The position numbers were made by a program, and so were the translations under genes. Below the pieces are notes generated by a model. That model worked only from the letters and a program-made list of their open reading frames with translations. It was not told the DNA's origin and searched no databases. From Branchiostoma floridae (Eukaryota; Chordata; Leptocardii; Amphioxiformes; Branchiostomatidae), in assembly GCF_000003815.2 (NCBI RefSeq), contig NC_049980.1:28452218-28516217 (forward strand): DNA of 64,000 nt, in the 5' to 3' direction. Numbering within the stretch: the first letter of the stretch is position 1; each line of letters begins with the position of its first letter. This document shows positions 45,801 to 48,800 of the stretch, piece by piece.

Positions 45801-48800
45801 CTAAGATTTTGGGGGTGTCCTTGTTTTTAACATTTTGTAATCTAGTAAGTAATCTAGTAAATAAAATTGATGGATATTCAATGCTTCATGCCATATGCCT
45901 CAACTGCTATTTTCCTGTTACAGATATCTACATTGTTGCTAATGAGGAAGGGGAACAGCTGGTCATGAAACTTCACAGGTAAAGTTCTGTTTGGCTTTAT
46001 TTTCCTTCCATTTGATCAACACACTTTAGTCATCGAACAGTGCTGTTGGATGACTTCTGTCTTGAATGTTTCTGTAAAGGTTAAAACCAGTCAGTGGAAC
46101 AATAAAATCTGGTCTTTGTGGGCAGGTGATCACTATAGAAAGGATTCTTAATGCTTCTGTTAACGGGAAAAATTATCTGAAGGGACAGCGAAAAGGTAGT
46201 CACACTGCCAGATTGTCCTTCTGTACTGGTGACCACTTTGACATATTTTACTGTACCACAGAAGACTCCTTTTATTGACCCTAAATCTTTGCTCCTCCTG
46301 CAGACTGGGCCGCCAGTCCTTCCGTGCCATCAAACACAAGCGAGACTACCACCGGCACCGGCAGAGCTGCTCCTGGCTCTACCTGTCCAGGCTGGCCGCC
46401 ATGAAGGAGTTCGCTTTCATGAAGGTATGTAGAACAGGTTTGGCCTCATACCCTTCAGTTACTGTACTAGTAAATGCCTTTAACTTTAAGGCCCAATCTA
46501 TACACAGTTTTTACCGATATCTGTGGATGTGTCCAGAGGGATCTGGAACGTTGGCCGTGGGACACCCGTGGCGCTTGCAGTCATAAACAGCTATATAGCC
46601 TAATGAGCCCGCGTTGTATGCTAATGAGCCTTCCCAAAGTAGGGACACATCTACATGCGCGCGGAAGCTGTCGGGGACCCCTGCTAAGCTATCGGGGACC
46701 CCTGGTAAGCTATCCTACGAATGGTCCGGACCTTTTGGGAGAAATTTTCCTAATATCTTTATGGCGATATTGCAGTTCCATCTAGATGCTGAATAAAAGC
46801 TGTCGGCGAGAGGTTGTTGGCTTGCTGATATCGGGAAAAACCTTGTCTAGATCGTGCCTAAGTCTGCTGTTATTTAACCACAGTCATAAAACCACCAGAA
46901 ATTTGCAAGAATTACAGGAACTGGGTTGACCAGTTTGATTTAATCTTTTGCTGTCTAGGAATGGATTGCTTCTCTTCTCTTGGACCTCTTCTTCTCCTTC
47001 CTTGCAATCCAGATCGTTAAGGATTTTAACTCTACACTCCATACTCTGTAGTTGCAGAATATTAGGCAATGAGACTTTGTTAAAATGCTGACACAGCCTC
47101 TCCCTTTTCCAGGCCCTGCATGAACACGGTTTCCCTGTGCCAAAACCTGTGGACTTCAACAGACACGTAGTGGTCATGGAGCTGGTCAATGCCTACCCTA
47201 TGTGAGTAGAAATTTTACATTATATGGTAAATCTTATAGAATGTAATACTGACCTAACTCTTGCAACACAGCTACAATATTCTTCCCCTTCCATCCCTGC
47301 ATGTTTCAGTAACAGTGAAATTTCACCACCAACATTGCAAGGCACACAAGAAATATAGTGATGTGATTATTTCTATTCAAAGGGCCTGCCAAAATGGCCT
47401 TTATAGTGCCAGTAAAGTGAAATTTCCTTTATTACTCATGTCTCTGAAACTGTAATCTTTAAATCAATTCACTATTGTGTGCTCTTTGCTTGTATTATTA
47501 CCATACTCGCCAATGGGTCAGTCTTTTTTTTTATGTCATGGCTTTGGTAATTTGTCACACGAAAAAGCACATTGTGGTCAAATGATTGACATGGATGACA
47601 TAGATGCTTTCAGAAAAGACTACATTTTTATGTGAATGATAGAGAAAATTTCATTTTACTAATACTTAAGCATCATGTGTTGTTTGAACTGTTTCCCCCA
47701 CAGGTGCCAGGTGCATGATGTGGCGGACCCTCATTTGTTGTTTGAACTGCTTCCCCCACAGGTGCCAGGTGCATGATGTGGCGGACCCTCGTGTGTTGTT
47801 TGAACTGTCTCCACCCACAGGTGCCAGGTGCATGATGTGGCGGACCCTCATGTGTTGTTTGAACTGCTTCCCCCACAGGTGCCAGGTGCATGATGTGGCG
47901 GACCCTCATGTGTTGTTTGAACTGTCTCCACCCACAGGTGCCAGGTGCATGATGTGGCGGACCCTCATGTGTTGTTTGAACTGTCTCCACCCACAGGTGC
48001 CAGGTGCATGATGTGGCGGACCCTCATGTGTTGTTTGACCTGTCTCCACCCACAGGTGCCAGGTGCATGATGTGGCGGACCCTCGTGTGTTGTTTGAACT
48101 GTCTCCACCCACAGGTGCCAGGTGCATGATGTGGCGGACCCTCATGTGTTGTTTGAACTGCTTCCCCCACAGGTGCCAGGTGCATGATGTGGCGGACCCT
48201 CATGTGTTGTTTGAACTGTCTCCACCCACAGGTGCCAGGTGCATGATGTGGCGGACCCTCCTGCCGTGTATAACGAGTGCATGGAGCTGATCGTGAGGTT
48301 CGCCAACCACGGTCTGATCCACGGAGACTTCAACGAGTTTAACCTGATGCTGGACGAGAAGGACGGAGTGACCGTGATCGACTTCCCTCAGATGGTCTCC
48401 ATCTCTCATCCTAACGCTGAATGGTCAGGGCTTCTAATGGCTTTATTTGTTATCAGTAGTATTGCTGTGTAAACTGCTCAAGACCACTCAGATACTGATC
48501 GAATCTGTCCATGTGGACAGGTGGTCACTTTAGACAGAATTCTTCATGCTTGTGTCAATAGGAAGAATTATCTAAGGAACCCTAAAAAGTTATCACAGGT
48601 GGTCTCTACATGTATGTAAAGGTGGCCACTTGCACAGGTTTGAATGAAGACTAAACAAAAATGATCGGAGAGAAAAATAAGTTTGATTTCATGGTTTAAA
48701 CATTTCTGTAGCTATAGTAGACATACAAGGAAGGTGTAATTACTGTGTCGTAAATTTGAGATGGAGAGTTCACCACAAAGAAATGTTCAAAAGTTTCAAG

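Follow-up and report, generated by a model that had tools for sequence, protein, structure and literature searches.

A ten-copy mirage minisatellite repeats an internal splice acceptor of amphioxus RIOK2, whose last copy is probably the one used

How does a gene cope with an intron that appears to end ten times over? RIOK2, which is essential in other eukaryotes, raises this question in the amphioxus Branchiostoma floridae, where the boundary between intron 6 and exon 7 lies in a tandem array that repeats the splice acceptor itself. The first-pass annotation of this locus saw in it a natural test of acceptor choice, which seems fair to us, and what it said of the anatomy of the array, its ten acceptors and their reading frames holds. 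Its special value lies in a conflict: the core splice signals favour acceptor 1, whilst the protein needs acceptor 10.

Ten acceptors and one open frame

The RIOK2 coding region occupies 42843-50576 on the plus strand of the window (the whole 64-kb stretch of DNA that we analysed), where ten exons separated by nine GT-AG introns encode a protein of 534 aa with Rio2_N and RIO1 domains. The gene is single copy in the assembly: nine of the 11 matches to its protein lie at the RIOK2 locus, and the other two, on C14, share 25% identity. A paralogue acting as backup was considered and rejected, as these two are presumably other RIO kinases. Exon 6 (47113-47201, plus strand, placed by the gene model and a PDB match) ends in the donor TAT|GTGAGT after 47201. 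With the last acceptor used, the gene model gives an intron 6 of 1030 nt (47202-48231) and an exon 7 of 192 nt (48232-48423), the latter also backed by the frames and a PDB match; indeed, the protein made through acceptor 10 aligns with human RIO2 from the PDB over residues 1-532 (E=1.5e-184), ungapped across the exon 6/7 join.

We read the array and its frames directly from the assembly. TRF reports 10.0 tandem copies of a 59-bp unit at 47673-48260 on the plus strand (94% matches, score 1071), which bears out the earlier claim of a tenfold acceptor array in RIOK2, one base away from the coordinates then given (47674-48261). Register and alignment likewise agree with the unit as it had been described, an intron-6 acceptor plus the start of exon 7 repeated every 58-59 bp: each copy joins the last 31-32 nt of intron 6 to the first 27 nt of exon 7, and the exonic stretch common to all copies amounts to 29 nt. 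From acceptor 1 to acceptor 10, the first exonic bases fall at 47704, 47762, 47821, 47879, 47938, 47997, 48056, 48115, 48173 and 48232, in steps of 58, 59, 58, 59, 59, 59, 59, 58 and 59 bp. The exonic 27-mer occurs exactly ten times in the window and nowhere else in it at up to three mismatches (shuffles, n=100, expect 0), and exact matches to the 29-mer in the 513,431,437-bp assembly are reported solely at the ten array positions.

The copies have been homogenised, the exonic 27 nt being identical in all ten. Six of 32 intronic columns vary among them against none of 27 exonic columns (Fisher p=0.027), a difference that is only suggestive, considering that columns are not independent events and that few independent changes are involved. 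At a higher order, the 220-nt block at 47750-47969 (plus strand) is 99% identical to 48044-48263, five units or 294 bp further on, and this reflects either a multi-unit duplication or two alleles merged in the assembly.

What would each acceptor yield? Joined to exon 6, acceptor 1 leads to a TGA at 47774, a stop after 70 nt. Acceptors 3 and 8 meet a stop in the next copy (47891 and 48185), acceptors 4, 5 and 6 two copies on (48009, 48068 and 48127), acceptor 2 four copies on (48009), and acceptors 7 and 9 at 48288; among the ten starts, acceptor 10 alone keeps a frame open through exon 7. Reading all ten frames thus agrees with the first-pass annotation, by which the nine upstream acceptors all give stops and only the last yields the 534-aa kinase. 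Its positions for these stops stand where they were immediate, two steps on or near 48290 (48288 by our reading); acceptor 2, however, runs for four steps and not two. Stops from acceptors 1-9 are what is expected of a unit whose length is no multiple of three, and alone are no evidence of selection. Exon 7 would measure 192 nt from acceptor 10 as opposed to 251-720 nt from acceptors 1-9, the other seven internal exons of RIOK2 measuring 55-142 nt. The unique part of exon 7 has nine GAA/GAG triplets in 165 nt, as many as the array has in 586 nt.

Core signals and branch-point-like motifs

Scored with an approximate matrix, acceptor 1 has the best signal in the array (12.3; 47690-47704, plus strand), followed by copies 2, 4 and 9 at 11.5 and by copies 3, 5, 6, 7, 8 and 10 at 9.1, while the eight remaining RIOK2 acceptors range from 6.6 to 14.1. 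The pyrimidine tract is altered in copies 1, 2, 4 and 9. The signal of acceptor 10 (48218-48232, plus strand) is therefore tied for lowest, and with the productive acceptor among the weakest and acceptor 1 the best, core signals give no account of why the last one would be used. Each of the ten copies also contains a donor-like CAG|GTGCAT (47708-47716 in copy 1, plus strand) with a score of 5.3, slightly above the true exon-7 donor at 5.1, and a second donor-like site, CAG|GTGCCA, at 3.5; with CAG|GTGCAT in every copy, the unit could in principle serve as exon or intron. We rejected the AG at +7 of each copy (CCAG|GTGCAT) as the true acceptor, as it scores 0.0 in the first three copies and leads to a stop in all ten. 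Concealment of the upstream acceptors by RNA structure was likewise rejected, for we found no folded stretch more stable than its shuffles: the 661-nt array region is less stable than 20 of 20 shuffles (z 5.6), and three 101-nt pieces of the array have no excess stability (z -0.01, 2.03 and 1.05). Every copy further contains TGCATG (47712-47717 in copy 1), which we take to be the RBFOX motif UGCAUG; the array holds ten of the 38 plus-strand sites in the window, and the 28 outside it already exceed the 14.2 that base composition predicts for the window as a whole.

Where, then, would the branch point lie? The best branch-point-like sequence adjoins acceptor 1 only: a TACTAAT at 47657-47663 (plus strand), a near-perfect match to the branch-point consensus. 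Its A, at 47662, precedes acceptor 1 by 42 nt, and the motif falls outside the array. This is probably the ancestral branch point; the motif is not enriched overall, with three occurrences on the plus strand of the window and none on the minus strand where shuffles expect about ten over both. The one AG between TACTAAT and acceptor 1 follows the branch A closely, 33 nt ahead of the AG of the acceptor itself, and AGs within ~12-15 nt of a branch point can be bypassed (PMC1431707). Under the first-AG rule, as summarised in the same source, TACTAAT would select acceptor 1 and should not serve acceptor 10, for which a different branch point is needed, together with some preference for the exon-proximal site.

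The copy junctions offer a candidate. Copies 2, 4, 5, 6, 7, 9 and 10 have a CTCAT at -29 or -30, formed where the exonic CCCTC of one copy joins the ATGTG of the next (ATTTG in copy 2). Before acceptor 3 this becomes CTCGT (47788-47792, plus strand), as it does before acceptor 8, and copies 3 and 8 have no yUnAy in their last 60 nt; copy 7 has an additional TTGAC at -18, and the AG-free zone ahead of acceptors 2-10 spans 51-52 nt. Going by these motif positions, the branch point of acceptor 10 is most likely the CTCAT at the junction of copies 9 and 10 (48199-48203, plus strand), whose A at 48202 lies 30 nt before the acceptor. We put forward tentatively, and with somewhat more doubt than conviction, the further idea that the duplication made its own branch point: with TACTAAT left outside the array, the junction CTCAT would make each unit a self-contained acceptor module on which RIOK2 depends.

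A known kind of repeat, and its neighbours

The RIOK2 array is an amphioxus mirage, a kind of repeat already described in lancelets, though a long and uniform one. The original account reportedly appeared in Nucleic Acids Res in 2002. As in other amphioxus mirages, tandem repeats that span a boundary duplicate splice sites and evolve in concert: the unit extends over an intron-exon boundary (31-32 nt of intron, 27 nt of exon), the copies carry splice signals (ten acceptors at 9.1-12.3 by the approximate matrix), and they are homogenised, down to the 27 identical nt and the 220-nt blocks at 99%. Mirages have been described in Adh3, the globins BflGb6 and BflGb9, troponin C and PGBD5 (PMC3087553, PMC3902484), PGBD5 carrying the same kind of repeat and troponin C being cited as another (PMC3902484). 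The globin Gb6 mirage resembles ours in sitting on the acceptor side, with the 3' end of an intron and the 5' part of an exon, but has 3-6 copies of 150-160 bp, unlike the ten short, near-identical 58/59-bp copies of RIOK2. Copy number differs between two haplotypes of Gb6, with six and three units (PMC3087553), and between two sequence versions of PGBD5, with seven and two (PMC3902484); by analogy, copy-number polymorphism of the RIOK2 array is plausible. Data on Adh3 and RT-PCR of the globins suggest that regular splicing is undisturbed by mirages, whose repeated signals are nevertheless allowed as possible cryptic sites (PMC3087553). Elsewhere in amphioxus, the introns of a VCBP gene contain whole or partial copies of exons, and some of these copies have canonical splice sites (PMC2632668). 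The parts of the published mirage accounts available to us make no mention of RIOK2 or of a branch-point layout with one motif outside the array and others at its junctions. Our literature search had no paper on RIOK2 and amphioxus among the matches listed, from which we make no claim that the RIOK2 mirage is unpublished, and found no report of a copy-number-polymorphic minisatellite at an exon-intron splice acceptor.

Beyond lancelets, laboratory duplications of splice sites have identical acceptors compete in cis, with position and exon context deciding between them; unlike these, the RIOK2 array is natural, tenfold and part of an endogenous gene. In humans, a VNTR of CBS is reportedly associated with reduced CBS activity, to go by the title of a 2001 paper by Lievers. 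This 31-bp repeat, c.1444_1467+7(16_21), is likewise polymorphic across an exon-intron boundary and repeats a splice site, its unit comprising, by its name, 24 exonic and 7 intronic nt; it differs in lying on the donor side, in having 16-21 copies, and in species and gene (PMC2630376). There is also a likeness to the Rogers model of intron gain (cited in PMC3087553), in which duplicated segments with AG|GT could become introns, and potato RdRp is reported as a case of gain by tandem duplication (PMC4974935). In RIOK2, however, an existing intron has been extended, and we see no evidence of a new one.

Is the array an oddity of RIOK2? We surveyed the window, six adjacent 10-kb stretches and 20 more elsewhere, 324 kb in all (217 bases counted twice), for arrays with a period of at least 25, at least 1.9 copies and a TRF score of at least 80, and found 29, on average about one every 11 kb. 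Five of these run to about 20 copies or more, and one to 52. Such a density of minisatellites is possibly enough to strike splice sites by chance. Frames were inspected for 14 of the 29, nine of the 11 in or beside the window and five of the 18 elsewhere, and at least four proved to be mirages: four of the 11 in or beside the window, with none found among the 18 elsewhere (five inspected). As genes beside RIOK2 are no random sample, four of 29 is no genome-wide rate. Three window arrays (17704-18168, 31402-31566 and 33299-33910) had no exon that we could recognise by eye in their frames, and Pfam placed none of ten window open reading frames, only some of them near arrays, above its curated cut-off, with one weak match. 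Also in the window are 20 perfect copies of the hexamer TAGACT, a microsatellite that precedes RIOK2 (41475-41594), and a 320-codon plus-strand open frame (52507-53466), rich in Thr/Ser and with a hydrophobic stretch towards its end, whose predicted product looks like a mucin-like membrane protein.

The four mirage arrays lie in three genes within about 89 kb. On the minus strand at L014:2827-3083 (C2:28432827-28433083), inspection revealed a donor-side mirage of 87 bp x 3 that repeats the last part of a myosin motor exon together with its donor (Pfam 7.2e-14; PDB myosin VIIa 7.3e-9); its donors score 12.5, 12.5 and 5.9, the first two being CAG|GTGAGT and the third CAG|GCGAGT, and the frame, if read on, meets a TGA at the donor. 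At L016:4982-5455 (C2:28520982-28521455), a threonyl-tRNA synthetase exon (L016 5155-5301; PDB match 5.3e-7) carries a mirage at each end, an acceptor-side one of 135 bp x 2 and a donor-side one of 49 bp x 3.3. Its exon-proximal acceptor copy is intact and its outer one decayed, with 17 of 93 exonic nt different, a score of 7.5 against 11.7 and an in-frame stop if used. Such decay is as expected if outer copies are idle, and fits the logic of a last acceptor in use. With at least three further mirages nearby, the RIOK2 array appears to be the sort of thing that a genome rich in minisatellites ordinarily produces.

Skipped decoys or working acceptors?

We consider it quite probable that the RIOK2 array is, as a whole, a mirage minisatellite whose last acceptor is mostly used, whose upstream copies are skipped and whose effect is near-neutral. 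Here we infer acceptor and branch-point use, decay and neutrality from what the assembly gives directly: the array, the frames, the gene, its uniqueness and the positions of the motifs. The array would have begun when a segment spanning the junction of intron 6 and exon 7 was duplicated in tandem, and would have grown by further multi-unit duplication. The cell would mostly use the last acceptor because only acceptor 10 adjoins the full body of exon 7 and its donor (the 192-nt exon), and the nine upstream copies would leave with the intron; rare use of an upstream acceptor would give RNAs with early stops, probably degraded. The CTCAT made at the copy junction would probably serve the last acceptor, because nine competing acceptors stand between that acceptor and the older TACTAAT. 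Copy number would then be nearly invisible to the protein, so the array could persist and change length. Exon definition is the simplest preference that we can propose, given the shorter 192-nt exon and the denser GAA/GAG of unique exon 7; it probably explains the choice, with decay of misspliced RNA as a backstop, and the idea that decay via stops hides imperfect splicing has been raised for new Drosophila introns (PMC2809761). The intact reading frame through acceptor 10 is consistent with regular splicing having been kept, and most likely the array is neutral and the splicing machinery passes it over. Three points speak against this. Acceptor 1 is favoured by its score (12.3 vs 9.1) and by TACTAAT, even if its use makes no kinase; the exonic invariance of the ten copies, a weak objection, is not required of neutral upstream copies; and mirage splice signals could act as cryptic sites (PMC3087553).

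Could the decoys instead be at work? Upstream acceptors might be used to a meaningful extent and their RNAs destroyed, with copy number or splicing factors setting the level of RIOK2. The stops met from all nine, the lead of acceptor 1 in both score and branch-point-like sequence, the invariant exonic halves and the UGCAUG in each copy (the RBFOX motif, the array holding ten of the window's 38 plus-strand sites) would all suit such a rheostat. We nonetheless find it improbable: previously described mirages reportedly leave regular splicing intact (PMC3087553, PMC3902484), stops are expected when a unit is not a multiple of three, the misread frames of the neighbouring 87-bp and 135-bp mirages likewise meet stops, UGCAUG abounds in the window (28 plus-strand sites beyond the array alone, with 14.2 expected for the whole), and the presence of three more mirages close by in unrelated genes suggests that mutation is the cause. 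The first-pass proposal that copy number tunes RIOK2 dosage through nonsense-mediated decay is hypothetical and finds no support, published data on other mirages arguing against it.

The number of copies may itself be questioned, for a shorter real array of, say, five could have been doubled by merging of alleles during assembly. The two 220-nt blocks, 99% identical at a distance of five units (294 bp), would fit such an artefact, one mirage was wrongly assembled in a genome draft, copy numbers differ between sequence versions (PMC3087553, PMC3902484), and an early B. floridae assembly has been reported to contain allelic swaps. Yet copies 2 and 7 show that the two blocks are not alike in every detail, the array has a single location on a contig of chromosome scale, and multi-unit duplication is how minisatellites normally grow; we rate this unlikely, if a little less so than the rheostat, and even five copies would be a mirage. 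Far less credible than either is a self-correcting splicing in two steps, in which exon 6 is first joined to an upstream acceptor, after which the surplus copies are spliced out as an intron through the AG|GT of each copy. Every copy does offer CAG|GTGCAT (5.3 vs 5.1 for the true exon-7 donor) and CAG|GTGCCA (3.5), but exact restoration needs either the +7 AG as acceptor, at a score of 0.0, or an unscored and poor-looking junction donor, TAT|GTGCCA, and by our reading the simple pairing of CAG|GTGCAT with a main acceptor puts the frame out by adding 7 nt.

Returning to a mirage probably spliced mostly at its last copy, what is new here is the arrangement of its signals: TACTAAT sits beyond the edge of the array with only acceptor 1 close by, the acceptor that scores best and yet is unproductive, and the copy junctions create a substitute CTCAT before the downstream acceptors except those of copies 3 and 8. 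If RIOK2 does depend on the junction motif, copies 3 and 8, having lost the A, should be nearly silent; branch points would turn over by tandem duplication, which would explain why acceptor-side mirages are tolerated, and a single-copy housekeeping gene would rely on a branch point that was absent before the duplication. The natural variants within the array, with motif loss in copies 3 and 8 and altered tracts in copies 1, 2, 4 and 9, could test exon context against branch point and order. Were RNA to confirm the use of the last acceptor, a single-copy gene that is essential in other eukaryotes would be seen to tolerate nine decoys, and repeats to be able to create branch points. With four such arrays in three genes over ~89 kb, the amphioxus genome may hold many natural experiments of this kind.
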